A DNA stretch of 39,806 nucleotides from positions 1 to 39,806 of IMG/VR virus record IMGVR_UViG_3300008261_000129, one strand, 5' to 3'. The translations under genes were made by a program, and so were the position numbers. Shown one piece after another: positions 701 through 38,992 of this stretch. The notes under the pieces were generated by a model. That model searched no databases and was not told the origin of the DNA. It saw nothing but the letters and a program-made list of their open reading frames with translations. How positions within the stretch are numbered: the first letter of the stretch is position 1; each line of letters begins with the position of its first letter. Origin of the DNA: a virus.

Positions 701-722
701 TTCGTTTACCTGTTTTTTAGTA

Positions 723-3050: not shown

Positions 3051-3109
3051 TTTATTTCTCCAATTTGTATTTTAGGTTTTGTATTTGTTATTAGTTGTAA
3101 AAATACACA

Positions 3110-3117: not shown

Positions 3118-3120
3118 TAA

Positions 3121-3168
3121 AGAAAATGTCCAAAACACAAATCTATTTACTAAACTATGTTTTGGACA
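3121..3168 (-). terminator. Hairpin terminator between the 132-residue gene and the sheath gene
   Basis: A perfect 11-bp inverted repeat, TGTCCAAAACA at 3127-3137 and TGTTTTGGACA at 3158-3168, has a 20-base loop. On the minus strand it is followed by TTTTCTTT. It starts 29 bases after the stop codon of the upstream gene. The loop is longer than in a typical intrinsic terminator, so efficiency may be modest. Confidence 0.65.
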
Positions 3169-3196
3169 CTAAATTATAAAAATATTTCAAATTACC

Positions 3197-3595
3197 TTAT
3201 ACAGGCTGTGGGTCTACCCCATACATATTACTTCCAGATGTTGGAGCCCAAGGTAAATCTGCTTCCATTACCATTACTCTATGGTACTTATTTACATTGA
3301 TTTGCTTATCTATCTGGCCTTGTATATGGTCCCAATAATTTAATCCACGATTTGAACCACTAACTATATCTTTTACCCAACCTATAACTTGCTCTTCTGT
3401 CAAATTTTGATATTCGGTAAAATTGTTAGTATCTACTGAATTTAAACTTAGAGGTGTTGCTCCGGTAAAACTACCAGAATAACCATTTTCATCAACTCCT
3501 ACCAAGTTCCAATAGGTATTTACCACAACGTTTGATAATTCGTCTGTGTTTTGCTTTTTTATACCTGTTAATTTCCACTCGTATGTATATCCCAT
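3197..3595 (-). CDS. Small T4-like phage virion-type protein, unnamed family
   Basis: This 132-residue protein has no signal peptide or membrane segment. It begins MGYTYEWKLTGIKKQNTDEL, has a beta-rich first half (VVNTYWNLVGVDENGYSGSF) and a helical middle containing NLTEEQVIGWVKDIV, and ends in DLPWAPTSGSNMYGVDPQPV. Small proteins with this xYTWxVTGLK start and a TEExVLGWV segment are, from memory, common near structural genes of aquatic T4-like phages, where they have no assigned role. I cannot confirm the family name. No clear Shine-Dalgarno precedes the ATG; the leader is A-rich. It sits alone between a TATTTATT element and a hairpin terminator, next to the sheath gene, so a tail or virion role is a reasonable guess. 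Confidence 0.7.
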   Translation of the reverse strand: MGYTYEWKLTGIKKQNTDELSNVVVNTYWNLVGVDENGYSGSFTGATPLSLNSVDTNNFTEYQNLTEEQVIGWVKDIVSGSNRGLNYWDHIQGQIDKQINVNKYHRVMVMEADLPWAPTSGSNMYGVDPQPV

Positions 3596-13587: not shown

Positions 13588-14493
13588 TTATTTCCAAGTT
13601 GATGGTATTGATGCAAAGTTTGATAAACCAGTACAATTTCTAAATGCAGCTGTTCCAGCTGGCGTTGGTGTTCTATTCCAAAGTTCTGGAGCAGTACCAG
13701 TTAATGCATTTGAAGTTGAACTCATATTATAAACGTTGTTAAAAATTGTTACATTAGTATTATATGTAAATTGTAATACGTTTGTTAATGATAAGCAGTT
13801 TCTAAACGTACCAGAAAAGTTTGTTGCATTTACATTCAAATCAAATAAAGTAGATGGTACGGATGTCAACGCAGTACATGCAAAGAAACAAGATGAAAAT
13901 GTTGTTGCATTTGGTACATTATCAAACAATCCATTAGGTACACTAGTTAATGTCAATATTGATGCAAATGTATTTGAAAATGTTGTTGCACTTGGTGAGT
14001 AATCAAAAAGGTCAGATGGTATTGATGATAATTTAGTAGCTTGAAATGCAGAGTTAAAACTTACCACTTCTGCTAATCCGGTGTAACCACCCACTCCACT
14101 CAAAGTACCACTACCAGGTATCGCTGTTAAATTACCACAGCCATAAAAATTAATTGTTCTTAATCCAACAATACCCCATTGTACCAATTCGGTAATTAAA
14201 CTTCTAATAGCTGAGTTGTTGTTTACTGTAAATCCTGGCATAAACCCACTAATAGTAATTGTATATGTTCCAGGTGAAACGTATGTATGAATTCTATTTA
14301 CAGAAGATGATGAAGTTATTAATGGTGAATTGGCAGTACCATCACCCCAACTAATTATCACAGATGGAGTCAATGAACCATAATCCGATAAGGGTACAGT
14401 AAAAACAGTATTTGCAGCAGTTGTTGTTACTTTAAATACAAATGGAAATACTTGTGCCGAATCTGAAGGTATTAATTTTCTTGCTATACTCAT
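13588..14493 (-). CDS. PKD plus BspA-type leucine-rich-repeat adhesin
   Basis: A 301-residue protein. Residues about 20-95 form a PKD-like beta domain with the WGDG signature and the closing HTYVSPGTYTITISG strand pair. From about 115 to the end there are BspA/DUF285-type leucine-rich repeats of about 25 residues: LTSVPNGLFDNVPNATTFS, CTALTSVPSTLFDLNVNATN, CLSLTNV, CTGLSNFASIPSTWK, each with an aromatic and Cys-containing turn. Both domain types bind proteins or glycans in bacterial surface adhesins. There is no signal peptide, as expected for a virion protein. It follows the 3,730-residue fibre by 11 bases with no clear Shine-Dalgarno, and precedes the chaperone-like gene. A receptor-binding tip for the fibre is plausible but inferred. 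Confidence 0.8.
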   Translation of the reverse strand: MSIARKLIPSDSAQVFPFVFKVTTTAANTVFTVPLSDYGSLTPSVIISWGDGTANSPLITSSSSVNRIHTYVSPGTYTITISGFMPGFTVNNNSAIRSLITELVQWGIVGLRTINFYGCGNLTAIPGSGTLSGVGGYTGLAEVVSFNSAFQATKLSSIPSDLFDYSPSATTFSNTFASILTLTSVPNGLFDNVPNATTFSSCFFACTALTSVPSTLFDLNVNATNFSGTFRNCLSLTNVLQFTYNTNVTIFNNVYNMSSTSNALTGTAPELWNRTPTPAGTAAFRNCTGLSNFASIPSTWK

Positions 14494-14504: not shown

Positions 14505-17500
14505 TTAACTCATATTTTTACCAACTACAAATCCATAATAAGTAGTACCACCATCAAATGTAAAGAATGTCAATACATCTACACCAGTTGATGTTAATAT
14601 AGGTGCACTTCCACCAGCCCAATCCAAATTAACTGGCCATGTTAATGCGTATGTACCAGCATTAACCATAGTAAATGTAAATCCGAATGAATTTGATGCA
14701 GGTGCGTTACTAAATGCAATTGTTGAAGTTGCGTTAAATTGTCTTCTAAAATTATTTCCTAATGAAAGGTCTAATGTTACACTTCCGCCTGTACCATAAT
14801 CGTAATAAGTTTCTCTATATGTGGTTGATGCTATATTTCCAGTTACAGACATCGTAGTTCCATCAAAAGTTAAATTACTTTCAACGATTGCAGCCACAGG
14901 GGTTGCTTGGTATGTCAATAAACCATTATCAGTTGCTCCAGTCAAACTAAATCCGTTTGTACCAGAAGTTCCAGATGTAAAGTTTGGTGGAGTTGTACCA
15001 GAAGTACCAGAAGTACCAGTTAAACCAGCAGTTCCGGATGTACCAGAAGTAAAGCCAGGAGGCGTAGTACCCGATGTACCAGAAGAACCTGTTTCGCCTG
15101 AAGTTCCAGCAGTACCCGATGTAAAGTTTGGTGGAGTTGTACCCGAAGTACCCGATGTACCAGTTTCTCCACTAGTACCACCACTACCGCTTGTACCCGA
15201 TGTAAAGCCCGGAGGTGTAGTACCCGATGTACCAGAAGAACCAGCCGAACCCGTAGCTCCAGGTGCACCACTACTTCCGCTTGTACCAGATGAACCAAAG
15301 AATGTACCATCTAAACCACTTGTACCAGAAGTTCCATTTGTACCCGTAGAACCTGATGTTCCGTTTGAGCCCGATGTTCCGTTTGAGCCCGATGTACCAG
15401 AAGTTCCAGAAGTTCCCGATGAACCAAAGTAAGTTCCATCAAATCCAGAAGTACCACTTATACCAGAAGTTCCCGATGTACCCGATGTTCCATTCGTACC
15501 CGTAGAGCCAGATGTACCAGAAGTTCCTGATGTACCAGAAGAACCAAAGTAAGTTCCATCAAATCCAGAAGTACCACTACTTCCAGAAGTTCCTGATGTA
15601 CCTGATGTACCACTACTTCCAGCAGTTCCAGAAGAACCAGAAGTTCCTGATGAACCAAAATAAGTTCCATCGAAACCAGAAGTACCACTACTTCCAGAAG
15701 TACCATTTGAACCAGCTATACCGCTTGTACCAGAACTTCCTGAAGTGCCATTTGTACCGCTACTTCCAGAAGTACCACTACTTCCAAAGAATGTACCATC
15801 TAAACCAGAAGTTCCTGATGAACCAGCCGTACCAGTAGTACCGCTTGAACCAGAAGTACCAGCTCCAGATGTACCCGATGTACCACTACTTCCAGAAGAA
15901 CCAAAATAAGTTCCATCTAAACCAGAAGTACCAGACGAACCACTTGAACCAGACGTACCAGACGAACCTGCGCCCGAAGTTCCAGAAGAACCACTACTTC
16001 CAGAAGAACCAAAATAAGTTCCATCTAAACCAGAAGTTCCTGAAGAACCGCTTGAGCCACTACTTCCAGAAGTTCCATCCGTACCAGAAGTACCATTTGA
16101 ACCAGATGTACCAGAAGTTCCTGATGAACCAAAGAATGTACCATCTAAACCAGAAGTTCCAGATGAACCAGACGTTCCAGCAGTTCCATTACTACCAGAA
16201 GTTCCAGATGTGCCGCTTGTACCAGAAGAACCAGAAGTTCCTGATGAACCAAAGTAAGTTCCATCTAAACCACTTGTACCAGAAGTTCCGGAAGTTCCGC
16301 CTGTACCATTTGTTCCGCTTGAACCACTTGTACCAGCAGTACCAGTGCTTCCGCTTGTACCAGACGTTCCAGAAGTTCCTGAAGAACCGAAGAATGTACC
16401 ATCTAAACCAGAAGTTCCAGACGTTCCCGATGTACCGCTTGTACCAGACGAACCAGAAGTTCCCGATGTACCAGAAGTACCTGAAGAACCAAAATAAGTT
16501 CCATCTAAACCGCTTGTACCAGAAGTTCCTGATGTACCATCTGAACCAGAAGTACCTTGAGTTCCAGAAGTTCCAGAAGTACCAGATGAGCCTGATGTAC
16601 CATCCGAACCACTTGTGCCCGATGTACCATCAATACCACTTGTACCAGAAGAACCAGTTGAACCGCTTGAACCAGAAGTTCCCGAAGTTCCCGAAGTTCC
16701 GCTTGTACCATCACTTCCAGATGTACCACTACTACCGCTTGTACCAGATGAACCAGTTGTACCCGATGTACCTTCAGAACCATCCGTACCACTTGTACCA
16801 CTCGAGCCAGATGTTCCGCTTGTACCATCTGAACCAGAAGTTCCCGATGAACCAGATGTACCATCCGAGCCCGTAGTTCCAGAAGAACCCGTAGTTCCAG
16901 AAGACCCAGCTGAACCAGAAGAACCAGAAGAACCAGCTGTCCCAGAAGTACCATCACTACCAGAAGTTCCTGAACTACCAGATGAACCAGAAGTTCCAGA
17001 AGAACCTGTTGTACCAGATGTACCGCTTGAACCGGATGTACCACTACTACCGCTTGTACCATCCGTACCAGAAGTTCCCGAAGAACCACTACTTCCAGAA
17101 GTTCCGCTTGTTCCAGAAGAACCGCTTGAACCAGAAGTTCCTGATGTACCATCCGTACCAGAAGTTCCAGAAGTTCCGCTTGTACCAGAAGAACCAGAAG
17201 AACCTGTTGTACCGCTTGAACCGCTTGAACCAGAAGTACCCGATGTACCATCTTCTCCAGAAGTACCTGATGTACCGCTTGTGCCAGAAGTTCCGCTTGT
17301 ACCAGAAGTTCCCGAAGAACCCGTTGTACCAGAAGTACCACTTGTGCCAGAAGAACCAGAAGTTCCCGATGTACCAGAAGTACCACTTATACCATCCGAA
17401 CCAGAAGTTCCAGATGTTCCCGATGAACCACCACTACCAGAAGTTCCTGATGTGCCACTTGTACCAGAAGTTCCACCACTACCTGATGAACCACTTGAAC

Positions 17501-20500
17501 CGGCAGAACCACCACTACCAGCTGAGCCAGATGTTCCACCACTACCAGAAGTTCCCGATGTTCCGGAAGTTCCAGAAGAACCGCCACTACCTGCTGTACC
17601 AGCTGTTCCGCTTGTTCCAGAAGAACCAGATGTTCCAGAAGTTCCTGAACTTCCACCACTACCAGAAGTACCCGATGTACCACCACTACCAGAAGTTCCT
17701 GATGTACCGCTTGTACCAGAAGTTCCAGAAGAACCACCACTACCAGCCGTACCACTTGTACCGCTTGTACCAGAAGAACCACCACTACCAGATGAGCCTG
17801 ATGTACCAGACGTTCCTGATGTGCCAGACGTTCCTGATGTGCCAGACGTTCCTGATGTTCCGCTTGAACCAGACGTTCCACTACTACCACTTGTTCCAGA
17901 AGAACCAGAAGTTCCCGATGAACCAGTTGTACCAGATGTTCCCGCTGAACCGCTTGTTCCAGAAGTTCCTGAAGTACCAGAAGTTCCAGAAGTTCCTGAT
18001 GAACCAGACGAACCAGAACTTCCTGATGAACCGCTTGAACCAGAAGTTCCTGAAGTACCACTTGTTCCAGAAGTTCCTGATGAACCGCTTGAACCAGATG
18101 AACCAGAAGAACCTGAACTACCGCTTGAACCGCTTGAACCAGATGAACCACTACTTCCGCTTGAACCAGATGAACCATCCGAACCTGAAGTTCCAGAAGA
18201 CCCAGAAGAACCAGCACTTCCAGATGTACCAGAAGAACCAGATGAACCAGCACTTCCAGACGAACCCGAACTACCACTTGTACCAGAAGAACCACCCGTA
18301 CCAGCAGTACCAGATGAACCAACTGCTGCTACTATATTTCTTCTTTCTAATTTTTTAGTTATACTATTCCAAATAACAACATCTTCAGATGAACCAGAAG
18401 GTAAATTACCTAATAATAAACTTCCACTAACACCTAAACTTCCACTAATAGTTAAATTAGCGTTAATACTACTATCTTTGTTTACTTGTAAGAATGATGC
18501 CGTATTTACTCCTTCCGCATTTAGAGCGTAAAGAGCGTATGATGCGGTGTATGCTAATGAAGCAGTACCAACCAACATTGATGAAGTTGCTGATGAAAGT
18601 ACAAAGTTACTAACATCTACATTTGCTGCGTTTGCTGCGTACAATGCGTAAGATGCAGTTCTAGCATAAGATGCCGATAGAACTGTCATAGATGCAGTTG
18701 CACTATTCTTAACATAATCGGTTAATTCTAAACCTTGCAAACTAGCTACATATGATGCGGTTAATGCGTAAGAAGAACTTACCGCACTAAACACAGCCAT
18801 TGATGCCGTTTGAGATGCCTTAACATAAGAAGATGCATCGGATAAAGATGCCGATAATGCTACCAATGATGCTGAATCAAATCCAGTTACTGCATCTGCT
18901 ATACCAGCTCTACGAGCATATGATGATGATAAAACCTCACCAAATACTCTATCACCTGTTATTGTACCATTAATTAAAGAACCACCACTACCAATTACAA
19001 CGTGTCCAGAAGTTAATCCAGCAAATTTAATTTGAATTGTATCTTCATTAATTGATTTAACAGTACCAGGCAAAATTTGGTCTTCAGAACCAGTTGCGTA
19101 CACTTGAACCATTGGGTATCTAATTCCCAAATTGTGTACAATTGTTAAATCACTAACATTATTAAATGATACCGTTTCAGTTAATGATGTTTCAGGTTGA
19201 GGTACAAAATATCCTCTACTTTCATCAAATCTTAAAATATCATATTCTGCACTAGCCGTAGGTCCAACTCCTTGGAAATTATATGTACCCAAAAATGAAC
19301 CCGTAAAGAATGGAGCGAATACATATTGAGATGCGGTAACTTTATTTAAATATGCCGTATTTGATACGTTATAAAAATCACCCCAAATGAATGAAGATGT
19401 ATTAACTACAAATCCTTTATCAGGTGAAATAGATGCAGTTACCGAACCACTCTTTAATATAAATGTTTCAAATGATAAGTTAGCAATATTAATGTTGTAT
19501 AATCCGCTACCATCACCAACGTATGTAGAACCACTTTGTAATATTACATTACCACCACTTACGAACACAGAACCACTCACAGTTAATGAACCTGAGTGTA
19601 TTCTAGCTGATGTATTTATATCAAGTCCTTTATCAGGAGAAATTACCGCTTGTGCAGAACCTGATTGAATTCTATCCAATTTAAGGTCTTGTAATGCATT
19701 TGCAGGGATGTTAAATAATCCACCACCATCACCACTATAACGTGCTGCTGTTATTTCAGTACTTACATCTAAAATTTCAGGTCTTTGAATTGTAGTAGCA
19801 GAACCAGATTGAATTCTATCTAATTGAAGGTCTTGAAGTGCTGATGCAGGAATATCAAAAAGATTTGCACCAGAACCAGAGAATGAACCTGTGTAAAGTT
19901 TTACATCACCATAGAAAGTAGAACCACTATCATATGATGTTACAACAAATCCTTCATTTGGTGCTACTGAAGCTGTTACGCTACCACTTACAATTCTTGG
20001 TGCTGCAGCCGCTGCTACGTTTGTAATTTGAGAACCATCACCAATAAATGCAAATGCTCTTACACTTCCACTAACATCAACTGAACCGGTAAATAATGAA
20101 CCATATGCTGAGCCGGTTTGTGAAGTTGTTACTACAAATTGTTTACCACTTGCTACCGATGCTGTTGCTGAACCACTAGCGATAAATGGTGCTGCTGCCG
20201 CTTGTACATTGGTGATTTGCGAACCATCACCAACAAAGAATTGCGCATATACCGAACCACTAACTGAAACAGAGCCTGTAAATTCTATACCAACATCAGA
20301 ACCAGTGTATGCGGTTGTTACTATTAACTTATCACCACTTGCTACGGATGCCGTTGCCGAACCACTAGCGATAAATGGTGCTGCTGCCGCTTGTACATTT
20401 GTAATATATCTACCATCACCATAGAAGAAATCAGTTACAGTCAATGAACCACTAACTGAAACAGAACCAGTAAATCTACTTCCTATTTCAGAACCAGTAA

Positions 20501-23500
20501 ATGGAGTTATTACATTAAATCCATAATCAGGTGAAACCGATGCGGTTACTGAACCAGATTTAATTTCGGTTGAGATTAATGCATCTTCAGTCAATGCTGA
20601 ACGAGGTATTCTTCTAAGATATGTACCTTCTGCGTAAATAAATGATGATGAACCTATAAACAATCCACCACTTACATCATTCAAATACAAGCTACCACTT
20701 ATATCAACAGAACCAGTAAATTGTGAACCGATTTGTGTACTAAAGAAATCAGTATCTATTGATGATGTGAATGGAGTTATAACTTTAAATCCATAATCAG
20801 GTGCTACTGAAGCAGTTACAGAACCTGATTTAATTTCCGTAGATATTAACGCATCTTCAGTAAGAGCTGAACGAGGTATTCTTCTTAAGTATTGTCCTTC
20901 TGCAAATATATAAGAACCAGAATCTATATAAACACTACCAGTTATATCCAATGAACCAGTAAATCTAGAACCAACTTGAGAACCTGTGAATGGAGTAATT
21001 ACATTAAACCCATAATCAGGTGCTACCGATGCTGTTACACTACCACTTTTAATTTCAGTACTAATTAAAGCATCTTCAGTTAATGCTGAACGAGGTATTC
21101 TTCTTAAGTATTGTCCTTCTGCGTAAATAAATGATGATGAATCAATGTAAACTGCTCCACTTATTGCGTTTACATATAAGCTTCCACTCATATCAACATC
21201 ACCCAACAATGATATTTGTGCGGATGCAGATACCGCATCTACTACATTTATAATTCCCTGCATTGCAGAGTGCATTTGACAAATATAGTATAATGTATTT
21301 GGTGCACTTCCAGAAACTAAGAAAGTTATTGTACCAACATCATCACCATTATTTGTTACCCAACTATTATATTGTTGTGTAAGTCCAGTTACTGCCGTAT
21401 CTTTAATCCAAAACGGATGACCAGATGCATTAACATTAAATGTGTATTCAGTATTTCTTACTAAAGTAATGGTTGGATTTGAACCACTTGCTGCTCCACT
21501 AAACACATAAGCGTTACTACCATCATTGGTAACATCAAATACTCTATTAAGGTCTTGCGGATTTATAATTCTAGCAGATGATGATACTATAAAACTACCT
21601 GTAATTGTAGAGAATGTATTTACTACAAATCCATAGTTAGGAGAAATTGATGCAGTTACAGAACCAGATGCCAATCTTACCGCATCTTCAACTATTGCTG
21701 AACGAGGTATATTAACTAAACCAGCACCACTACCACTAAATACAGATGCAGATACACCACTATTAAAGAAAGAAGTTCCATCGACAGATAAGCTTGAACT
21801 TAATATTGTTTTTGAACCACTTACAAATACACTTCCAGTGAATTGAGAACCACTTGCTAAAGATTGTACTTTAAATCCAAATACAGGCGAAACTGATGCA
21901 GTTACCGAACCTGATTTTATTTCAGTTGATATTAATGCATCTTCACTTAATGCGTTTCTAGGAATATTTCTTAAATAAGTACCTTCACCAAAATATGCAG
22001 ATGAAGAACCAAGCATTAATGCTCCACTAATAGCACTTATAATTACACTACCAGATATATAAACACTACCACTAATTCTTGAACCACTATATGGAGATTC
22101 TACAATAAATCCTCTATCAGGTAAAGCTGAGGCAGTTACACTACCACTTGCAATTCTAAATAATTCTTGCGAAAGTGCTGAGAATGGAATATCTGTCAAT
22201 CCAGCACCACTACCACTAAATACAGATGCAGATACACCAGATTGGAATCTAGTAAATCCACTAACTGATAAACTTCCACTAAAAGTAGAACCACTTGCTA
22301 CCGAAGTAACAACAAATCCAAAATTAGGAGATACTGATGCAGTTACACTACCACTAAATATTTTTGATGTATCCAAATCAGATATTGCCGCAACCGGAAT
22401 ATCAAATAATTGTCTACCACTACCACTAAATGAACCAGTTCTTAAAAATACAGAACCACTTAAAAATAATGAACCTGTAAATTGAGAACCCTTTTCAGTT
22501 GATTCTACTCTAAATCCAAATGTAGGTGAAACCGATGCGGTTACTGACCCAGAAAGGATTCTATTTGTATCCAATGCATCAGGTGCTAACGCTGTTCTTG
22601 GAATGTTAAATAATCTTTCACCACTACCACTATATGAAGAACCAGATGTTAATTCGATACCTCTAGCACCACTAATAAATAATGAACCAGTTAATTGAGT
22701 ACCCAACTCACCAGATTGTACAATAAATCCTTTATCAGGTAATGCAGAAGCTGTTACCGAACCACTAGCTATTTTTGTTGTCTCTAATGGTGGTATAAAT
22801 ATATTTGTTAATCTACTACCATCTCCAACAAATGAACCACTAATTTCGTATCCACTCATTGATACGGCAGTAATATTTTGTGCGGTTAAAGAGCCACTAA
22901 TACTAACACTACCAGATATTTCAGAACCTTTTTCTGCAGATTCTACTCTAAATCCATAAACAGGAGAAACAGATGCGGTTACCGAACCAGAAGAAATTCT
23001 AAATGAATCTCCAGTGAAAGCTGAACGAGGTATGTTAAATAATCCACTACCATCACCCTGAATAAATGATGCACTTATTGAGGCAGTAACTTCTCTTGCT
23101 ACAATTCTATCTGATACAAATAGACTACCACTAATAACCACATCAGGTCCTCTTTGTAAAATAGCATCTACAATATTGATTGTACCAGCCATTATACTAT
23201 GAACTTGGCATATGTAATATAAAGTAGAAGGAGAACCTACCGCCGGAGTAAATGTTATTACACCAACATCATCACCATTATTTGTTACACCAGTATTATA
23301 AGCATTTGAAGTACCTGTTGTTTGTGCTGTCTTAATCCAAAAAGGATGACCTGTAGCGTTTACATTGAATGTATATGTTATACCTCTTACTAAAGTTAAA
23401 GTTGGATTTAATCCATTTGCTGCACCCGTAAATGAATAAGCAGATGCCCCATTATTAGTTACATTAAATACAGTTTGTATAGATTCGCTTGGTAAGTATG

Positions 23501-26698: not shown

Positions 26699-29600
26699 TT
26701 ATATTTGTAGAGCCAATGAGAACGGAGTTACTAATGAGAATAGAGATTTACTAAATGTTCTACCCACAAGAGTACCAGTTGCCTGATTAATACTTAAACC
26801 AGTACCAATTCTAAAGTCACCATCTTGGTTTGCCACACCACTACCACCCTGATTTGGTGGAAGTGCTTTAAATGTAACACCACTACCATTATAAGAGTAG
26901 TCAATACCAGTTGCCACAATCAATGAACCAAATGATTCTAATGGTGCACCAGCTGCAACAAACTCTGCTCTTGTTCTTAAATATCTATTAGTTTCCAAAG
27001 TCTCTAATTTTTGAGAACTAATTACTGCTTGAGCGCTTCCGTATTGGCCCGTATAGTATGAAGATGCTGCTGCTATTGCTCTTTCATTTCCACCATACAA
27101 TAAATCCGTTGCACAAGCATCTACAATCAATCCAGTATCACGAGAACAAGACGCCTCATTATATACTAAATATGGGAATGCTCCATTTGTATATCCAATT
27201 GCTCTTTGTTTTAATTCTTCTTTAGCTGCTACTAATCTTACTGCTGCTTGTCTTCTCTTAGTAGATGGTGCTAAATAAGTTAATAAAGTATTTGCAACAA
27301 CTTTTTCAGAAAGTCCTCTTGCGAAGTTTATACCATCAACAGTTTGTTTTTTCTGTCCAATTGTACCATTATCGGTGTAACTATCATAAATAGCTACTGA
27401 AGGTATTCTATAATAATAAGAACCTGCTTCAATACTTCTTTCGTTACCACCATATACCAAGTCAGTTCTAATAGCGTCTATAATAAATCCTAAATCACGA
27501 GAACAACTTACTTCATTGTATTTTAATGTACTCCAAGAAGAACTTAAGAATGTTATAGTTTCTTTTTGTATTAAAGATTTATTATATTTTAACAAATCAA
27601 CAGTAGTTACTAACGATGAAGATGGTAATTGGAATGTTGGGTTTGTAATAACTTTAGTTGCCAATCTACCAGCCCATCTTACACCTGTAATTGTTGGGTC
27701 TAATTGAGCTGCTTCGGATGGTACACCAGCTACCGTTGCTTTTGATGGGAATGCAAAGTAATAAGTACCAGCCGTTACACTTCTTTCAGTACCACCATAT
27801 AATAAGTCAGTTGCTGCTGCATCTATTAAGTAACCAATATCACGAGAACAACTTGCTTGGTTGTATTTAACACCACTCCAAGAAGATGATACATAAGCGA
27901 TAGTTTCGGCTGCTATAAATTGTTTATTTTTTCTTAATAAATCAAATGATGCAGATACTTGAAGTGATGCAGTTTGGAATACTACATTTTGAATTACTTT
28001 TTGTGCAATTCTACTTGCGTAGTTAATACCTTGAACAGTTTGTTTTAATTGACCTTCACCATCACCATCACCCAATAAGGTTGCTTTAGATGGATACTTA
28101 AAGTAGAAATCAGCACTCATATAAGTTCTCTCATTTCCACCATATAATAGGTCAGTTGCCACACCATCAATAATGTATCCAACATCACGTCTACATTTTT
28201 CTTTGTTATAATCAAATGTACTCCAACTAGCAGTTAAATATTGTATTGTTTCTTCTTGTATGAATTGTCTATTATTTCTAAGTAATTCAACTGAAGCAGA
28301 AACTGCTTGAGATGCTGTTGTAAATGTTGTATTTTTAATTATGTTTACAGCTACATCTTTTGCGAAATTAACTGCGTTTATAGTTTGTTCTACTTGCGAA
28401 CCAGTTGCTTTAGATGGATATGTATAATAGTAAGTACCAGCTTTAGCACTTCTTTCATTACCACCATAAAGAACATCAGTTGCTACCGCATCTATAATTA
28501 ATCCTACATCACGTCTGCACTTATCTAAACTATATGTAAATTCATTCCAAGAAGAAGTAATATAAGAAAGAACTTCAGCTTGTATAAATCCTTTGTTTTG
28601 CTTCATTAATGCATGTGATGCTGAAGCGTGTGCCGAAGCCGTTACAAATTGTGTATTTACAATTAATTTTTGTGCCAATTGTCCAGCATATCTAATACCA
28701 TCTAATGTTTCATCTAATTGTGAACCAGTTGCTGATGATGGGTATAAGAAGTAATATCTTCCAGCTTCTCTAACTCTTTCGTTACCACCATAATATACAT
28801 CAGTTGCTACCGCATCTAAGATGTATCCTAAATCTCTTTCACACTTAGATTGGCTGTATAAGAATGGTGTATCGGTATTTGAGCCCGTTACCCAAGAAGA
28901 ACTTAAATATGCTATTGTTTCTTTTTGTATAAATGATTTGTTTTGATTCAATAATGTCCAAGCAGTTGTTCTTTCTAAAGATGCAGTTTGATATTGGATA
29001 TTTTGAAGAACTTTTTGTGCCATTCTACTTGCGAAGAATATACCATCTAAAGTAAAGTTTAATTGAGATGTAGTTGCTTGAGATGCTGATTCAAAGTAGA
29101 ACTTACCATTTACGATAGATGCCGAATCAACACCAAATAACATATCTTCCGCTGCTCCACTTATAATCAACCCAACATCTCTCTTACACTTAGATTCATC
29201 GTAAGAAGCCGTACTCCAAGAAGAACTAATATATGCAATAGTTTCGTTTTGAATGAATCCAATGTTTTCTTTCAATAAATTATATGCGTAGTAAACATTT
29301 GATGCAGTTGATGGAGTTGAATAATTAACAGGAGTTCCTGCTACCCCAATTCCATTTGCTATAATATTAGTTACAATTGAAATAGATGCTGATATTAAAG
29401 ATGCTTCATAATCAGTACCATAAGATGAACTTAGATATTGATTTGTTGTTGTAAATTTAATACTTTGAGATACATTTGATACCAATGATGGTATTACACC
29501 AATACCATTTTCAATTATATTAGTTACAACAGCAAATGATGAACTTACTCTATTTACTTCATAAGCTGATGCCGAATTTGAAGATGTATATTGAGTTTGT

Positions 29601-32600
29601 GAAGTTACTTTAATATTATTTGCTGTATTCAATATTGGTTGTGGTTCACTTATGTAAACACTATTAACAATCGATTGTGCCAATCTTCTAGCATAATCTA
29701 TTGCTGTTGTTGTTTCATCTAATTGAACTCCAGTTGCTAATGAAGGATATAAATAATAGAACTCTCCAGCTTTATTGCTTCTTTCATTTCCACCATATAA
29801 TAAATCAGTTGCTACCGCATCTACAATATATCCAACATCTCTCTTACATTTAGATTCAATATAATCCAATTCAGGATACTTAGCGTTTACAAATGCTAAA
29901 GTTTCTTCTTGTATGAATGTTTTATTAGATTTTAATAAATTATAAGCGTATTGAGTTGCTGCATCGGTTGATGTTAATAATGAACCAGAAACAACTCTCA
30001 TACCCAGTCCTTTAGCGTATCTAACACCAGTTAATGTTGGTTCTAATTGAGCCGAAGTAGCTTGTGAAGGATAATCATAATAATATCTACCAGCTACAAT
30101 ACTTCTTTCGTTTCCACCATATAAAAGGTCAGTTGCTACCGCATCTACGATATAACCAATATCTCTACTACAACTTAATTCATTATAATCAAATCCTTGC
30201 CAAGAAGAACTAACATATGCAATTGATTCAGATTGTATAAATCCTTTATTTTTAATTAAAGATGTATAAGATGCTGATGTTTCTTGTGCATACCATGCTG
30301 ATTCTGATATGTGGTACATCAATGTACTCTTTACAGCTTTTTGTGCAATTCCACTAGCAAACTTTAATGCTGTTATAGTTTGGTCTAATTGAGTTGTAGT
30401 TGCTTGAGATGGATAATCATAGTAGTATTTACCATTTGTCAATGATGCTGAGTTACCACCAAATAAAAGGTCAAATGCTGCTCCACTTACAATCAATCCA
30501 ACATCACGTCTACACTTAGCTTCATCATAATAGAATGAAGACCAAGAAGAACTCATATATGCGATTGTTTCATTTACAATTAAATCAGTATTATTGATTA
30601 ATAAATTGTAAGATGAAGTTATCTTTGTATTTGTATTAGCTGCCGCTTGTGGACCAACATATGAAATTGAACTTGTTCCACTATTTAGTAAAACATCTAT
30701 TACAACACCAAATGATGATGAAACTAATTTAGATTGTAAATCTCTATTAACACCATCAGTTAATCTAATTTGCTGAGTGTTTGTTACTTTGAAACTTGCG
30801 GAAGTATTAAGTATTGGAGTTGGTATTACTGTTGTTCCATTTTCTACAATATTCAATACATTTCCAAATAGATTAGAAATTTTATTCTTTTGATATTCAG
30901 AGCCACTTAATATTGGTAGTATTTGAGTAGCTGATGTTATTTTTACAGATGATGATACATTTGTAACAACATTAGGTATTACATTTGTTCCATTTTTTAT
31001 AATATTAATAACATTTCCAAAAGATGAACTTATTGAGCTAGTTTGTGAATTGTAACTTCCACTTCCTAATATTTGCGTATGAGATGAAATATGTAATAAA
31101 GTTGGAGTTAATAATTCAAATCCATAATTAAAATTACTAGCTAATGCATCAGGTAATGAAGCACTACCATTGTAAATAATATCTTTTATCAATTCAAAAG
31201 AAGAAGTAGTTATACCGATTTCTACCAAACTTGCTGAAATTGATGATGATACTATTGGTTCTGATGTTACTTTTATTGCATTTACACCATTTCCTACAAA
31301 TGTTGGTAATGCGGTCAATCCACTTTCTATTACTTTTGTTACAGTAGAGAAAGATGAACTTACTTCTGATATTTTTGTACTTCCAACATTTATTGATGAT
31401 GTATATTGATTAATATTTCCTACTTTAATATTATTATCAACATTACTTGTAGTTGTTGGAGATACTAATTTAATATTTTGAACTATTTTTTTACTTAATG
31501 CTTTTGCATAATCAACTCCAGCTACAGTTTCTTTTACTTGTTCAGTTTTTGTAGCTTTTGATGGATAACGGTAATAGTAATCTCCGGCGATAATACTTCT
31601 TTGATTACCACCATACCATAAATCAGTTGCAACATTGTTTACAATATATCCAACATCACGTCTACACTTTTCTCTATTGTAAACTAAATATGGATAAAAC
31701 GCATCTATAAATTGAATAGTTTCATTTTGAATAAATTGTCTATTTGAAACCATTAATGAATAAGCGGATTGTACATATTCAGTTGGATATGATAATAATT
31801 GATTAGATATTACTTTTTGTGAAACTCCTGCTGCAAATGTTATACCATCTAAAGTAGGTCCTTTTTGTGCATCAGTTGTTGGTGATACGGATGATGTTAC
31901 AGTTGCTGCTGAAGGATATAGATAATAGTATTCTCCTGCTTTAGAACTTCTTTCATTTCCACCATATACTAAATCAGTTGCTACATTATCAATAATATAT
32001 GCAACATCTCTACTACAACTTGCTTCGTTAAATTGGAAGTTATTAATTCCAACCCAAGAAGAACTTAAGAATGCAATAGTTTCTTTTTGAACAAATTGTT
32101 TATTTTTATTAAGTAATTCCCAAGCTGTTATTTCAGATATTGTTGGTTTTTGTAAAAGTATGTTTCTTGCTATTTTTTCAGAAATACCTTTAGCGTATTT
32201 AATACCATCTAAAGTTTGTCCTAATTGTCCAGCCGAATCACCATCACCATCCACAGTTGCTAATGAAGGATATAAATAATAATATTCACCTGCTCTAGCT
32301 GATGATTCGTTACCACCATATAAAATATCCGTTGCTACTGCATCTACAATATATCCCACATCACGTCTACACTTAGCTTCGTTATATTCAAAGAAACTCC
32401 ATGCAGAATTTAAGAATCCAATAGTTTCAGTTTGGATAAGTTCTTTATTATCAACCAATAATTGATATGCCGTTTGTCTAGATAATGAACTTGATACAAA
32501 TACATTATTACTCAATACTTGCTCAAGCATATGTTTAGCGTGCCCAATACCACTTAATGTTGGTCCTAATTGAGTTGAAGTTGCAGTTGATGGTTCTATG

Positions 32601-35600
32601 TAATAATATCTACCAGCCTCTATACTTCTTTCATTTCCACCATAAATAATATCAGTTGCTACCGCATCTAAGATATATCCTACATCTCTCTTACAAGTAT
32701 CTTCATTGTATTGGAATCCATTCCAACTAGCAGAAACATAAGCAATTACTTCATTTGCTATAAAGTTTTTATTACTTACAATAAGCTCTTTTGCTTGTAA
32801 TTTATTTTGAGAAACTTTAATAAATTGTTGGTTTCTTAATAATCTATCTGCTAAGTTTTTAGCGTAAGTTACTCCAGTTACAGTTTCTTTTAATTGAGAA
32901 CCAGTTGCTGCCGATGGATATAGGTAATAGTAAACTCCAGACTTAACACTTCTTTCATTACCACCCCATTTAATATCAGTTGCCACAGAATCAATAATAT
33001 ATCCTACATCTCTACGGCAAGTTGTTTCATCATATTGCTTAGTACTCCAAGAAGAACTAATATATGCAATAGTTTCGTTTTGTATAAATTGCTTATTATA
33101 CTTTAATAAATCATAAGCAACATTTGATTGTGAAGTAGGTAAACTAAACTGAACACCTCTTACTACTTTTTGTGCTAATTGAGATGCGTATATAATACCA
33201 TCTAAAGTTTGATTTAATTGTGCACCTTGCGCTTGAGATGGATATTCATAATAGAACTTACCATTTACAACCGAAGCAGAGTTACTATTAAATACCAAAT
33301 CTTCAGCTGCTCCACTAATAATTAATCCAACATCACGTCTACACTTAGTTTCATCATATGATGCAGTACTCCAAGAAGATGATAAGTAAGCTATTACTTC
33401 ATCTTGTATAAATGGAATGTTATTTTTAAGAATTCCATAAGCTATCCATTTATTATCATTACTTAAAGGTGATGTATATGATGATGTAGATAATCCAGTT
33501 ATTATAGAACCAGTTCCATTAGCTATAATATTGGTTACAATAGAAATTGATGCTGATATTAAATTACTTTCAGTAATAGTTGCTGATGATGCTGAAATGT
33601 ATTGTTGTGTACCAGTAACTTTAATATTATTGTTTGTATTTGAAACTATTGTTGGTACTACATTTAATCCGTTTTCTAAAATATTAATTATAGTGTTGAA
33701 ACTTGCGCTTACACTATTTAACGGATTTCCAAAATAAGATGAAGATAAAGCTACTGATGATGAATACTGATTAGTATCAGTTATTTTTACTAAAGCAGCT
33801 GTATTTTTAACCAATGATGGAATTGAGCCTGTTCCATTTTCTACAATATCTAAAACAATATCAAATGAAGTATTTGATGTAGTTTTATATGTTTGAGATA
33901 TTGATGCGGTTGATATAAATTGATTTACATTTGTTCTCTTAACCAATCCACTAGCATTATTAACTATTGTTGGTATTGAACCTGTGCCATTATCAATAAT
34001 ATCAATAACAATATCAAATGAATTTTTTATTTTTAAATAATCAGCAGGTTGTGGAGTTATAGATGATGTATGTTGTGTATAAACATATTGATTACTTACA
34101 ACACTATTTGCTAAAGTTCTAGCATAATTGATTCCTTCTAAAGTTTGCTCTAATTGAGAACCAGTTGCTTGTGATGGGTATAAGAAATAAAATCTACCAG
34201 CTTCAATACTTCTTTCGTTACCACCATATAAAATATCAGTAGCAACATTATCAATAATATAACCAACATCTCTTTTACATTTATCTTCGTTATAAGATAC
34301 TGTTGAAAGATTTGCATTAATCTTAGCTATTGTTTGATTTTGAATCCAATATTTGTTATCTAATAGTAAATCATATGCAGTTTGCTTAGATAAAGATGCA
34401 GTTTGGAATATTACATTTTGTACAATTTTTTGAGCAAGTCCACTAGCATATCTAATACCATCTAAAGTTTGATTTAATTGTGCACCTTGTGCTTGTGATG
34501 GATATTCATAATAGAATTTACCATTTATAGCAGATGCTGATATAGAATTGAAGATTAAATCTTCCGCTGCTCCACTTACTATTAATCCAACATCACGTCT
34601 ACATTTACTTTCATCATATGAAGCTGTACTCCAAGAAGATGATAAGTAAGCGATAGTTTCATCTTGTATAAATTTAATATTTTGCTTTAATAAATTATAA
34701 GCGTAATATGCATTAGATGCAGATGTTGCTGAACTATAAACTGATACAGATGGTACTGCTGAAAGCCCATTTGCTACAATATTCATTACCAATCCAAATG
34801 AAGAAGAAAGTATATTTGCTTCATTTGATGTACCAATATATGATGATGTAATGTATTGCTGAGTGGTTGTTGCTTTAATATTATTAGTTGTATTTAAAAG
34901 AACAGAAGGTATAGAACCAGTTCCGTTTTCTACAACATCCAAAACTATTGCAAATGATGAACTTACATTTTGTACATCTATTGTATCTACATTATTTGAA
35001 GAAGTTATTTGAGAACCTGCTATTCTTGCAACACCTTTTAATGAAGATGATACTATTGTTGGAATAACTGCAACCCCTTTATCAATAATATTGATTACAT
35101 TACCAAATGATGATGATATTATTAACTTATCAGAATCATTTGTAGAATTATTTATTTTATATTGTATAGAATTTGTCTTTTTTATACCAGCATCAGTATT
35201 AGATACTAATGATGGGTATGCAGAGCTTCCACTTTCTATTATTTTAGAGACTGTATCAAATCCATCTTCTATTGCTTTACCACCAATTGCTATTAGTTTT
35301 GATAAATCTCTACCAAAATTAATAGCATCAATTGTTTCCTCACTTTGGTCAGATGTTGCTAAATTTGGATATTTGTAATAGAATCTTCCAGAAATTATAC
35401 TTCTTTCATTACCACCATATACCAAGTCAGTAAGAACACCATCAAGTATAAATCCAACATCTCTATAACACTTAGAAGTATTATATTTTAATGAAGGATA
35501 TACTTCACTTACATAATCAATTACATTTTGTTGTATTAATGCTCTTTGCTCTTTAACTAATTGTCTAGCGTTTAATACTAATGTTGTTGGTTGTACTAAA

Positions 35601-38600
35601 ACTTTATTTAAAATAATGTTTTGTGCTAATCTATTAGCGTATTCAACACCAGTTGTAGTTGGGTCTAATTGTGCAGTTGTAGAAGGTACACCACCAACAG
35701 TTGCTGATGATGGGAATTTATAATAAAACTCGCCCGCAATAGATGTTCTCTCATTACCACCATACACTAAATCGGTTCTTACTGCATCAATAATATACCC
35801 TACATCTCTCTTACATTTATCTTCATTGTATAATACACCACTCCAAGAAGAACTTACATATTCAACAACTTCATTTGCTATAAGTTGTTTGTTCTCGTTC
35901 ATCAATCTACTTGCTTCTAATTTATCAGAATTAGCTGATTGGAATATCGAACCACTTACAATATTTTGTGCAATTCTACTAGCATATTTTACACCATCGG
36001 TTGTTTGTAGTAATTGAGAACCAGTTGCCTGTGATGGGTATAAGAAATAATACAACCCTGCTACTCTACTTCTTTCGTTACCACCATAAACTAAGTCAGT
36101 TCGTACCGCATCAATAATATAACCCACATCTCTCTTACAAGTTGTTTCGTTATAATCAAATCCACCCCAAGAAGAACTTAAATATGCAATAGTTTCATTT
36201 TGTATAAACTCTTTGTTATTAAATAATAAAGCGTTTGATGCAGAAATATTTGTTGATGGTAAACTAAACGTTATACCTTGTGTAATTACTTTTTGTGCCA
36301 ATCTACTTGCGTAGTTGATACCATCTAAAGTTTGATTTAATTGTCCACCAGTATCACCATCATTACCAATAGTTGCTTGCGATGGATATTCATAATAGAA
36401 TTGTCCGTTTACAATAGATGCGGAGTTAGCACCAAATAAAAGGTCTTCAGCTGCTCCACTAACAATCAATCCAATATCTCTCTTACACTTAACTTCATCA
36501 TATTGGAATCCAGCCCAAGACGAACTTAGATATGCAATAGTTTCGTTTTGTATAAATGGAATGTTAGCTTTTAATATTTGATATACACCAACTTTAGTAG
36601 AAATACTTGCGGTATAAATTGTTTTTGCAAAAAGGTCTACATTTCCAGTTTCAACTATTTGAGTTACTTTAGAAATAGATTGAGAAATAAATGATATATC
36701 TTCCAAACTACCACTATAAGATGCTGATATAAATTGTGAAGTTGACGTTACTTTGATATTTCCTGCAGTATTTTGAACTAATGTTGGTAATACTGAAGTT
36801 CCGTTTGTTATTGCATTTATTATTGTACCAAAAGAAGAACTTATACTAGCGGTTTGATTATTCGTACCAACATTTGCACTAATCCATTGTGGAGTTGATG
36901 TTACTTTAATACTTGCTGATGTGTTTGAAACAAATGTATCTAATTGAGATAATCCACCACTAATAATTTCAACAACATACGCAAATGATTGTGAAATAGA
37001 TGAAGTTAAATTAGAAGAAACAGTTGAACCAAATACTTGCTCAATATCGGTTACTTTAATTAAATTTTCTACAGAAGATGTAAATACAGGCTCTGCTACA
37101 ATTCCACCACCAATAATAGAAGTAACAATATTAAAGTTTCTATCAATAGTATTAACTTCATTTGGTGTTACATATGATGATGTTATTTGAGAACCACTTG
37201 TTACATTTAATGGATTTGCAACATTCCAATTTTGACCTGTGTTTTGTGCTAAAATAGATGGAATTGCTGATAATCCTCTTTTAATAATTCCTTCCATTAT
37301 TGAGAAAGAACTACTAATTATATTTTGTTGTGTTTTAGTTCCACTTATAGATGATGTAACATTTGTATTAGATGTTACTTTAATATTTTTTTCATCATTG
37401 TTTACAATTCTCGGTGTATCTAAAACAATATTTTGTACAATATAGTCTCCAATGATTTTAGAATACTTTATACCACCAATTGTTTCTTTTCTTTGAATAG
37501 AAGTTGCAACAGATGGATAATCATAATAATATCTACCAGCAGTTACAGCTCTTTCATTTCCACCATATAATAAATCGGTTGCAACATTATCAACTATATA
37601 ACCAACATCACGTCTACACTTATCGGTATTATATTTTAATTGTGGATACGCAACATTAATATATTCTATGGTTTCATTTTGAATTAATGATTTATTTTGT
37701 TTAAGTAAATCGTAAGCAGTTTGAGTTGATGCATTTGGTTGATTAAATGTTTTATTTTTAACCAAATTTGTTGCCACACCAGCAGCATATCTTATACCAT
37801 CTAATGTTTGTCCTAATTGTCCTTCCGAATCACCATCTCCTCTTACAATTGCTAATGATGGGTATAAATAATAAAATCTACCCGCCTCTCTAGCTCTCTC
37901 ATTACCACCATATTTTAAGTCAGTAATTACGGCATCTACAATATACCCAATATCTCTACGGCATTTAGCTTCATTATAATAGAAATTAGACCAAGACGAA
38001 CTTAAGAATGTTATAGTTTCTTCTTGTATAAATTTCTTATTTTCAAATAAATTATCAGCTACATTTTTCTTTTCTTGCAAATATGCATTATCTAAAATAT
38101 TAGTAAAGTTTGAATTTTTAACTAAATTTATAGCTAATCCAGCTGCATATTTAACTGCTGTTTTTGTTGGGTCTTTTTGTACAGTTGTTGCTTCAGATGG
38201 ATATTCGTAATAGAATCTACCAGCAGTAATACTATTATTGTTACCACCATAAATAAGGTCTTGACAAACCGCATTAACTAAATAACCAACATCTCTACGG
38301 CAAGTTGCTTCATCATAACTAAAATCAGACCAAGATGAAGATACATATTGAATTACTTCTTCTTGTATAAATGCCTTACTTCCAGTTAAAATTTCATAAG
38401 CATTTAATATATCAACATCATTTGTGGATTGATTACTTCCAGATATTGTTTGTGGATATGTTAATGTATTTGAAATTAAATAGAATGGTGTTTCTGAATT
38501 ATTTACAATATCAAACTTACCACTTAAATTATTATTAATTTGTGCAGTATAGTATAATGTGTTTGGTGCATCATATGGTACAGTAAATGTTATATTACCA

Positions 38601-38992
38601 ACACTATCACCATTGTTTACAACACCTTTATTATAATCATATCTATCATCAATTCCTTCATATAATTCTGTTCTAATAAAGAATGGATAATCTATACCAC
38701 CCTGTCCTTCCGATGCGCTTATGTAAAATTTATAAGTTTCACCTCTATACAATCTAATTGTTGCATTTGGCCCAACACCATCCCAATTATAAGATGAACT
38801 ATTTACATTAGTTACTGTATAACTTCTTCTATGGTCATTTGGAATACTTAATATGTTACTACCCGTACCATTTGCTAATATATTATAAATTATACTAAAG
38901 CTTGAACTTACTTTATTAACTGATACACTTGCTGATAAATAAGATGGTGCCCCTAATTGACTAATTGCTTCATCACTAATTCTTACACCCAA
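26699..38992 (-). CDS. vrlC: Giant VrlC-like structural protein, main part downstream of a frameshift
   Basis: At least 4,097 residues from the TTG at 38992; the frame is open upstream to 39280 with no better start, so this is almost certainly the continuation of the segment at 39234-39806. Order: linker modules (SSSFxxVxNIIxNG), a cupredoxin-like domain without copper ligands (about 54-170), then 25 modules of about 105 residues. Each reads FIQxETIAYLSSSW, C(R/K)RDVGYIVDAVATDLLYGG, NERSxxAGxYYYLYPSxAT, QLxxTLDGIxYA. Blocks of linkers recur between them. The C-terminus (FGSLIVATGIDYSYNGSGVT ... FRIGTGLSINQATG ... FSLVTPFSLALQI) closely resembles the ends of VrlC-type structural proteins of T4-like cyanophages as I remember them. 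No signal peptide or enzyme motif. Probably a whisker or baseplate-attached structure; the exact virion location in this family is unsettled. Confidence 0.82.
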   Translation of the reverse strand: MGVRISDEAISQLGAPSYLSASVSVNKVSSSFSIIYNILANGTGSNILSIPNDHRRSYTVTNVNSSSYNWDGVGPNATIRLYRGETYKFYISASEGQGGIDYPFFIRTELYEGIDDRYDYNKGVVNNGDSVGNITFTVPYDAPNTLYYTAQINNNLSGKFDIVNNSETPFYLISNTLTYPQTISGSNQSTNDVDILNAYEILTGSKAFIQEEVIQYVSSSWSDFSYDEATCRRDVGYLVNAVCQDLIYGGNNNSITAGRFYYEYPSEATTVQKDPTKTAVKYAAGLAINLVKNSNFTNILDNAYLQEKKNVADNLFENKKFIQEETITFLSSSWSNFYYNEAKCRRDIGYIVDAVITDLKYGGNERAREAGRFYYLYPSLAIVRGDGDSEGQLGQTLDGIRYAAGVATNLVKNKTFNQPNASTQTAYDLLKQNKSLIQNETIEYINVAYPQLKYNTDKCRRDVGYIVDNVATDLLYGGNERAVTAGRYYYDYPSVATSIQRKETIGGIKYSKIIGDYIVQNIVLDTPRIVNNDEKNIKVTSNTNVTSSISGTKTQQNIISSSFSIMEGIIKRGLSAIPSILAQNTGQNWNVANPLNVTSGSQITSSYVTPNEVNTIDRNFNIVTSIIGGGIVAEPVFTSSVENLIKVTDIEQVFGSTVSSNLTSSISQSFAYVVEIISGGLSQLDTFVSNTSASIKVTSTPQWISANVGTNNQTASISSSFGTIINAITNGTSVLPTLVQNTAGNIKVTSTSQFISASYSGSLEDISFISQSISKVTQIVETGNVDLFAKTIYTASISTKVGVYQILKANIPFIQNETIAYLSSSWAGFQYDEVKCKRDIGLIVSGAAEDLLFGANSASIVNGQFYYEYPSQATIGNDGDTGGQLNQTLDGINYASRLAQKVITQGITFSLPSTNISASNALLFNNKEFIQNETIAYLSSSWGGFDYNETTCKRDVGYIIDAVRTDLVYGGNERSRVAGLYYFLYPSQATGSQLLQTTDGVKYASRIAQNIVSGSIFQSANSDKLEASRLMNENKQLIANEVVEYVSSSWSGVLYNEDKCKRDVGYIIDAVRTDLVYGGNERTSIAGEFYYKFPSSATVGGVPSTTAQLDPTTTGVEYANRLAQNIILNKVLVQPTTLVLNARQLVKEQRALIQQNVIDYVSEVYPSLKYNTSKCYRDVGFILDGVLTDLVYGGNERSIISGRFYYKYPNLATSDQSEETIDAINFGRDLSKLIAIGGKAIEDGFDTVSKIIESGSSAYPSLVSNTDAGIKKTNSIQYKINNSTNDSDKLIISSSFGNVINIIDKGVAVIPTIVSSSLKGVARIAGSQITSSNNVDTIDVQNVSSSFAIVLDVVENGTGSIPSVLLNTTNNIKATTTQQYITSSYIGTSNEANILSSSFGLVMNIVANGLSAVPSVSVYSSATSASNAYYAYNLLKQNIKFIQDETIAYLSSSWSTASYDESKCRRDVGLIVSGAAEDLIFNSISASAINGKFYYEYPSQAQGAQLNQTLDGIRYASGLAQKIVQNVIFQTASLSKQTAYDLLLDNKYWIQNQTIAKINANLSTVSYNEDKCKRDVGYIIDNVATDILYGGNERSIEAGRFYFLYPSQATGSQLEQTLEGINYARTLANSVVSNQYVYTQHTSSITPQPADYLKIKNSFDIVIDIIDNGTGSIPTIVNNASGLVKRTNVNQFISTASISQTYKTTSNTSFDIVLDIVENGTGSIPSLVKNTAALVKITDTNQYSSSVALSSSYFGNPLNSVSASFNTIINILENGLNVVPTIVSNTNNNIKVTGTQQYISASSATITESNLISASISIVTNIIANGTGSIITGLSTSSYTSPLSNDNKWIAYGILKNNIPFIQDEVIAYLSSSWSTASYDETKCRRDVGLIISGAAEDLVFNSNSASVVNGKFYYEYPSQAQGAQLNQTLDGIIYASQLAQKVVRGVQFSLPTSQSNVAYDLLKYNKQFIQNETIAYISSSWSTKQYDETTCRRDVGYIIDSVATDIKWGGNERSVKSGVYYYLYPSAATGSQLKETVTGVTYAKNLADRLLRNQQFIKVSQNKLQAKELIVSNKNFIANEVIAYVSASWNGFQYNEDTCKRDVGYILDAVATDIIYGGNERSIEAGRYYYIEPSTATSTQLGPTLSGIGHAKHMLEQVLSNNVFVSSSLSRQTAYQLLVDNKELIQTETIGFLNSAWSFFEYNEAKCRRDVGYIVDAVATDILYGGNESSARAGEYYYLYPSLATVDGDGDSAGQLGQTLDGIKYAKGISEKIARNILLQKPTISEITAWELLNKNKQFVQKETIAFLSSSWVGINNFQFNEASCSRDVAYIIDNVATDLVYGGNERSSKAGEYYYLYPSAATVTSSVSPTTDAQKGPTLDGITFAAGVSQKVISNQLLSYPTEYVQSAYSLMVSNRQFIQNETIQFIDAFYPYLVYNREKCRRDVGYIVNNVATDLWYGGNQRSIIAGDYYYRYPSKATKTEQVKETVAGVDYAKALSKKIVQNIKLVSPTTTSNVDNNIKVGNINQYTSSINVGSTKISEVSSSFSTVTKVIESGLTALPTFVGNGVNAIKVTSEPIVSSSISASLVEIGITTSSFELIKDIIYNGSASLPDALASNFNYGFELLTPTLLHISSHTQILGSGSYNSQTSSISSSFGNVINIIKNGTNVIPNVVTNVSSSVKITSATQILPILSGSEYQKNKISNLFGNVLNIVENGTTVIPTPILNTSASFKVTNTQQIRLTDGVNRDLQSKLVSSSFGVVIDVLLNSGTSSISYVGPQAAANTNTKITSSYNLLINNTDLIVNETIAYMSSSWSSFYYDEAKCRRDVGLIVSGAAFDLLFGGNSASLTNGKYYYDYPSQATTTQLDQTITALKFASGIAQKAVKSTLMYHISESAWYAQETSASYTSLIKNKGFIQSESIAYVSSSWQGFDYNELSCSRDIGYIVDAVATDLLYGGNERSIVAGRYYYDYPSQATSAQLEPTLTGVRYAKGLGMRVVSGSLLTSTDAATQYAYNLLKSNKTFIQEETLAFVNAKYPELDYIESKCKRDVGYIVDAVATDLLYGGNERSNKAGEFYYLYPSLATGVQLDETTTAIDYARRLAQSIVNSVYISEPQPILNTANNIKVTSQTQYTSSNSASAYEVNRVSSSFAVVTNIIENGIGVIPSLVSNVSQSIKFTTTNQYLSSSYGTDYEASLISASISIVTNIIANGIGVAGTPVNYSTPSTASNVYYAYNLLKENIGFIQNETIAYISSSWSTASYDESKCKRDVGLIISGAAEDMLFGVDSASIVNGKFYFESASQATTSQLNFTLDGIFFASRMAQKVLQNIQYQTASLERTTAWTLLNQNKSFIQKETIAYLSSSWVTGSNTDTPFLYSQSKCERDLGYILDAVATDVYYGGNERVREAGRYYFLYPSSATGSQLDETLDGIRYAGQLAQKLIVNTQFVTASAHASASHALMKQNKGFIQAEVLSYITSSWNEFTYSLDKCRRDVGLIIDAVATDVLYGGNERSAKAGTYYYTYPSKATGSQVEQTINAVNFAKDVAVNIIKNTTFTTASQAVSASVELLRNNRQFIQEETIQYLTASWSTFDYNKEKCRRDVGYIIDGVATDLLYGGNERTYMSADFYFKYPSKATLLGDGDGEGQLKQTVQGINYASRIAQKVIQNVVFQTASLQVSASFDLLRKNKQFIAAETIAYVSSSWSGVKYNQASCSRDIGYLIDAAATDLLYGGTERSVTAGTYYFAFPSKATVAGVPSEAAQLDPTITGVRWAGRLATKVITNPTFQLPSSSLVTTVDLLKYNKSLIQKETITFLSSSWSTLKYNEVSCSRDLGFIIDAIRTDLVYGGNERSIEAGSYYYRIPSVAIYDSYTDNGTIGQKKQTVDGINFARGLSEKVVANTLLTYLAPSTKRRQAAVRLVAAKEELKQRAIGYTNGAFPYLVYNEASCSRDTGLIVDACATDLLYGGNERAIAAASSYYTGQYGSAQAVISSQKLETLETNRYLRTRAEFVAAGAPLESFGSLIVATGIDYSYNGSGVTFKALPPNQGGSGVANQDGDFRIGTGLSINQATGTLVGRTFSKSLFSLVTPFSLALQI
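27000..38440 (-). repeat. 25 CxRD modules and linker modules of the VrlC-like protein
   Basis: Twenty-five copies of C-x-R-D followed by hydrophobic residues and a GGN-type turn. Five (4th, 8th, 10th, 16th and 19th) belong to a separate class reading GL(I)(V/I)SGAAxDxxF with NSASxxNG(K/Q)FYYEYPSQA. Each of those five opens a block after a run of linker modules. About 24 linkers (SFxxVxNIIxNGxxxIPxxV) are found in the window including the upstream segment. DNA copies are diverged. Confidence 0.85.
38490..38830 (-). other. Cupredoxin-like domain of the VrlC-like protein, copper ligands lost
   Basis: It aligns along its length with the two fibre domains: SYTVTNVNSSSYNWDGVG, IRLYRGETYKFYI, VVNNGDSVGNITFTVP, LYYTAQINNNLSG. 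At the ligand positions His is Tyr (DYPFF), Cys is Ala, the second His is Asn, and Met is Leu. The fold is probably kept but it should not bind type-1 copper. Confidence 0.7.

Follow-up and report, generated by a model that had tools for sequence, protein, structure and literature searches.

Predicted cupredoxin domains with complete type-1 ligand sets in a giant phage tail fibre

Cupredoxins are known as cellular electron carriers and oxidases. The metal sites described in phage tail fibres are of another kind. T4 gp37 binds iron through His-x-His motifs, the same has been proposed for marine phage fibres, and a metal site has been predicted in the tail fibre of Alteromonas phage R22Y (PMC11705849). 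Two further tail systems are relevant here: T4 gp9, the socket in which the long tail fibre swivels (PMC3004832), and the tail of phage Milano, which is locked in a redox-sensitive manner by disulfides (PMC10811340). Among the titles and abstracts of the literature we searched, no paper describes a cupredoxin domain in a phage tail fibre, a virion or a cyanophage; annotations that are unpublished or kept only in databases may exist. The cupredoxin fold and its metal site are already known; it is a conserved type-1 ligand set in virion fibres or baseplates that we did not find described in those titles and abstracts.

The window analysed here is the whole of a 39.8 kb virus fragment (39,806 nucleotides) with contractile-tail sheath and tube genes (Table 1). 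Mel-JY01, immuto and RM378, the phages closest to it in these genes, are none of them among the phages that we list with a cupredoxin domain. The original prediction was that a 3,730-residue fibre of this virus holds two such domains with full copper ligand sets. Both domains are covered by the interval it gave (21230–23490), and all eight ligands are found at the claimed positions. Reading the translation also confirmed that Cys830 and Cys1473 are the only cysteines of the whole protein, which has 8 histidines. One point has to be corrected. The domains were said to lie inside a collagen-like tail fibre. The fibre does have a collagen-like stretch, but both domains sit in the N-terminal half, flanked by repeats of the SGSVTAS type. 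The identical His-to-Cys spacing of 46 residues in the two domains was likewise read correctly, and it is common to 111 of 139 intact relatives. However, because the two copies are homologous, down to matching flanks, the equal spacing reflects duplication and carries no weight as independent evidence.

Table 1. Features of the window; positions are in nucleotides.
Feature	Position	Strand	Remarks
Tail tube and sheath	181-3050	minus	closest: Microcystis phage Mel-JY01, Flavobacterium phage immuto, Rhodothermus phage RM378
Collagen-like fibre, 2,793 residues	4069-12450	minus	ends in peptidase-S74-like self-cleaving chaperone sequence (DRRAKENI...), judged by eye only
301-residue protein	13588-14493	minus	between two fibres; weak PKD match, phrog_9915 repeats, contains Cys
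Tail fibre ORF, 3,730 residues	14505..25697	minus	N-terminal half rich in repeats, then collagen-like Gly-X-Y stretch and tip domain at the C-terminus
Collagen-like Gly-Ser/Thr-rich stretch of this fibre	14955..18320	minus	about residues 2460-3581; cupredoxin domains outside
Cupredoxin domain 2, residues 1379-1487, ligands complete	21237..21563	minus	61-62% identity to domain 1
Cys1473-x2-His1476-x2-Met1479 ligand loop, domain 2	21261..21281	minus	
His1427, first ligand of domain 2	21417..21419	minus	
Cupredoxin domain 1, residues 735-845, ligands complete	23163..23495	minus	AlphaFold2 model and PDB matches to cupredoxins
Cys830-x2-His833-x2-Met836 ligand loop, domain 1	23190..23210	minus	
His784, first ligand of domain 1	23346..23348	minus	conserved in relatives
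Third cupredoxin-fold domain, ligandless (Tyr/Ala/Asn/Leu)	38504..38824	minus	near start of neighbouring 4,097-residue ORF 26699-38992

We modelled domain 1 with AlphaFold2, using 41 homologues. The model (pLDDT 94.9, pTM 0.87) has eight strands and the Greek-key beta-sandwich of the cupredoxin superfamily, as had been supposed. His784 (model residue 50) comes just ahead of strand 52–55, Cys830 (residue 96) is the last residue of strand 91–96, and His833 and Met836 (residues 99 and 102) lie in the loop before strand 103–109. The predicted placement of the ligands is the canonical cupredoxin layout. Foldseek and VIA-align rank rusticyanin, the cupredoxin domain of nitrite reductase from Hyphomicrobium (Z 11.2, rmsd 2.0 over 92 residues), laccases, an azurin carrying the amicyanin-type loop CAAHAAM, amicyanin and plastocyanin highest. 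Every one of the top PDB matches is thus a copper protein, although VIA-align match lists do not rule out other folds.

The ligands match the His-Cys-His-Met set of blue copper proteins in kind and, by the model, in position: the His pair, the Cys and the axial ligand stand at the canonical type-1 places. They are in register in an alignment with amicyanin, and those of a bacterial relative are in register with pseudoazurin. As in amicyanin, a Cys-x2-His-x2-Met loop connects the last two strands. Its spacing is invariant in the 139 intact relatives, its length is that of amicyanin, and the amicyanin loop (sequence checked against PDB 1aac) aligns with it in register. The fibre domain also shares the predicted eight-strand beta-sandwich with amicyanin, pseudoazurin, rusticyanin and the N-terminal domain of Hyphomicrobium nitrite reductase, and, as in those proteins, its first His stands where the fifth strand region begins. 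Unlike these proteins, it lies inside a virion fibre of several thousand residues, with neither a signal peptide nor a known redox partner.

One point against our reading is that direct sequence matches to named copper families are weak and below curated cut-offs. Identity to type-1 cupredoxins is about 15–23%, with no curated family cut-off reached. A Pfam search with domain 1 gave no match to any family, including PF00127 (Copper-bind); the weak matches to ORF68_C, CBM_4_9, At5g54830 and DUF4352 were below cut-offs and were set aside. The relatives, too, stay short of the cut-offs of Pfam PF00127 and of NCBIfam amicyanin and rusticyanin, reaching 0.004 for rusticyanin and 0.011 for amicyanin. 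Searching PDB sequences with domain 1 returned nothing, and the family profile returned a weak laccase match and chance matches only. The sequence link to named copper proteins came solely through a bacterial relative, a Bacteroidota lipoprotein. Its E values are 1.4e-4 against pseudoazurin, where all four ligands align, and 3.3e-5 against the amicyanin model. Because the curated cut-offs were not reached, we assign the domain to the cupredoxin superfamily only and not to any of the named copper families.

The window holds a third copy of the domain, in the neighbouring giant protein, which the original prediction had missed along with the wide phage and bacterial family described below. This copy has lost all four ligands, as have its relatives in other contigs, and is still modelled as a cupredoxin (AlphaFold2 pLDDT 92.0; rusticyanin match Z 10.7). 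It is a natural control. Since it keeps the fold without the ligands, the predicted fold is independent of them. And since the same fold appears to be used metal-free in the neighbouring fibre, metal would be an added property that is unneeded for folding.

How the ligands are kept can be seen in the relatives. Six-frame HMM searches of viral loci yielded 165 distinct domains covering all ligand columns: 139 have His-Cys-His, 21 have none of the three, 4 have the first His only, and 1, a DCHM domain, comes from a low-complexity misread frame and does not count as evidence. The Cys and the second His are never separated among the 165 domains. Hence, the ligands are not freely replaced; their loss is all-or-none, and conservation across homologues is that of a type-1 site. 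The loci around cyanophage gp9/gp10 give the same picture, with HCHM in 99 of 140 distinct domains, HCHS in one, and no ligands in the remaining degenerate ones. In a 145-domain tree, for which the ligand columns were masked, the ligand state changes six times on the best topology and at least twice on supported branches, the Cys and second His together each time. The tree evidence for co-loss is suggestive; with two changes forced on supported branches and six on the best tree, the events are few, too few for significance. One domain with His-Asp-Leu-Leu is the sister of an intact domain with 98% support, a clear recent loss.

The cysteine content of the fibres is a second indicator of selection. 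From the two lone cysteines of this fibre it had been argued that the ligands are selected and do not stand there by chance. Over 39 distinct fibres of the same architecture, 90,179 residues in all, we counted 76 cysteines, and 74 of them are in 74 intact sites, with 2 elsewhere; the four broken-site domains in these fibres have none. In 37 of the 39, the number of cysteines equals the number of intact sites. We therefore reject a chance origin of the ligands. Cysteine is not scarce in the virus as a whole, for the giant protein next to the fibre (4,097 residues) contains 27. Among the 139 intact relatives the ligand Cys is encoded by TGT in 73 and by TGC in 66; both codons are in use, and hence it is the amino acid that is conserved and not its codon. 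A disulfide within a domain was considered and rejected, there being a single Cys per domain.

The domain is widespread in phages. A tblastn search found it in 348 phage records. Phages of Synechococcus and Prochlorococcus make up the main part, and phages of Pelagibacter and Actinomycetia are also represented. Scans of the domain alone against Pfam, NCBIfam and PHROG gave a clear answer from PHROG only: our domain matches the C-terminal part of PHROG 677 (positions 302–410 of 412; E 9e-26 and 2.6e-24) and is the same domain, and all 41 aligned members match. PHROG 677 is the baseplate wedge tail fibre connector, known in cyanophages as gp9; its N-terminus is similar to T4 gp9 and gp10. There the domain closes a short connector, whereas here two copies lie within a giant fibre. 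All six cyanophage gp9 proteins that we read singly have HCHM (S-CAM8, Syn33, Syn9, P-SSM7, ACG-2014d and P-TIM68); the P-TIM68 representative is a larger protein at the gp9 place. In four cyanophage loci (in L121 at 2014-3234) gp9 consists of a T4 gp9/gp10-like N-terminus and a cupredoxin C-terminal domain, and the next baseplate wedge protein holds more copies, part of them intact and part degenerate. The domain also occurs in fibres of the T7-like phages P-SCSP2 and P-GSP1, and its fold in predicted structures of other viral proteins. Beta-sandwich proteins of pithovirus- and marseillevirus-like metagenomic viruses have the same predicted fold (BFVD A0A481Z6J5, A0A481YVH3 and others).

Bacterial genomes were scanned with a closer alignment, the first being too diverse, and the domain was found in Bacteroidota, Bdellovibrionales, gammaproteobacteria and Acidobacteria. 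These cellular relatives share as much as 71% identity with the query family. HCHM is present in 57 of 60 distinct domains and HCHQ in one, an Acidobacteria lipoprotein in which Gln replaces Met. Gln is the axial ligand of stellacyanin. Many of the cellular relatives have a signal peptide or lipobox, judging their N-termini by eye. The bacterial proteins thus have the same domain, but as exported single-domain proteins or lipoproteins and not as part of a virion.

Our preferred reading, to which we give a probability of about 0.72, is that both domains of the fibre are true cupredoxins and that their His-Cys-His-Met sets function as type-1-like metal sites, in all likelihood with copper bound. 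We propose that they serve as a clamp module. The module would be a mobile beta-sandwich, common to phages and secreted bacterial cupredoxins, that phages of aquatic bacteria have put repeatedly into tail fibres and baseplate proteins. In the fibre shaft it would be a compact domain, placed in line or to the side, and the bound metal would clamp the Cys-His-Met loop onto the first His, so that the exposed domain is stiffened and protected. If the stoichiometry is that of T4, with six trimeric fibres, there could be 36 such sites on this fibre per virion. Two things make a clamp or stabiliser likelier than receptor contact or redox triggering: the proximal position of the domains, and the use of this module in the gp9 socket, where the long fibre attaches in T4 (PMC3004832).

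Copper is probably the metal of the site. Phage fibres are made in a reducing, copper-poor cytoplasm, which counts against copper loading. Because the cytoplasm is copper-poor, copper would perhaps be acquired only after lysis, from the water. One could also argue that the virion carries zinc, or another soft metal, in a plain structural site. The cytoplasm supplies zinc more readily than copper, and among the structure matches of domain 1 is a cupredoxin-like protein solved with zinc (4hcg). Nevertheless, the exact type-1 set with Met, the amicyanin-length loop and the exported cellular relatives favour copper, and we consider zinc unlikely.

The metal could also serve in host contact, if copper displayed on the fibre engaged host proteins for the uptake of copper or other metals, or ligands on the host surface, as a kind of copper 'Trojan horse'. 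The iron of T4 gp37, proposed for marine phage fibres too, is a precedent (PMC11705849), and the ligand set is maintained although the fold works without it. As in T4 gp37 and, by prediction, in R22Y, candidate metal-binding residues lie in a tail fibre. The likeness goes no further: ligands and fold differ, the metal probably does too, and the 3,730-residue fibre has no His-x-His motif, which led us to reject an iron site of the gp37 type. The domains are in the proximal or shaft half of the fibre and not at the C-terminal tip, and related domains are in the baseplate connector gp9, both places ill-suited to reading a receptor. A role in host contact is therefore quite unlikely.

Very unlikely, in our view, is a redox switch, in which reduction, oxidation or loss of copper at the cell surface would loosen fibre or baseplate joints and help to trigger the tail. 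Cyanophage gp9 has the module as its C-terminal part, and the corresponding protein of T4 is the swivelling fibre socket (PMC3004832); the disulfide lock of the Milano tail is a precedent (PMC10811340). But no redox partner or mechanism is visible, each domain has one buried Cys, and the idea is purely inferential. Least probable of all is a metal-free relic. Phages would then have acquired a structural module from a secreted bacterial cupredoxin so recently that the ligands persist by descent: ligandless members do keep the fold, so that the fold alone is useful to phages, but divergence is large, with all four ligands retained in relatives down to about 40% identity, the silent Cys codon positions are randomised, Cys is absent elsewhere in these fibres, and in a neutral relic the ligands would disappear singly instead of all-or-none.

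If sites like ours are clamps filled with copper, phage tails may carry copper, and virions would be metalloproteins in a way that the titles and abstracts we searched do not describe. The domain, labelled hypothetical or beta-sandwich in databases, would gain a name that says something about its function. The cultured cyanophages P-SSM2, P-SSM7, Syn9 and Syn33 are ready test objects. It is possible, though we hold this only tentatively, that blue-copper centres are standard tail components of phages in seas and fresh waters, present also in the gp9 socket of most cultured cyanomyoviruses, and that copper works in infection, by locking joints, by redox triggering or through host contact. If this were true, virions would be a sizeable pool of protein-bound copper in the water. 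The finding bears on tail stability or triggering in sunlit water, and with it copper may join the discussion of phages as metal carriers.
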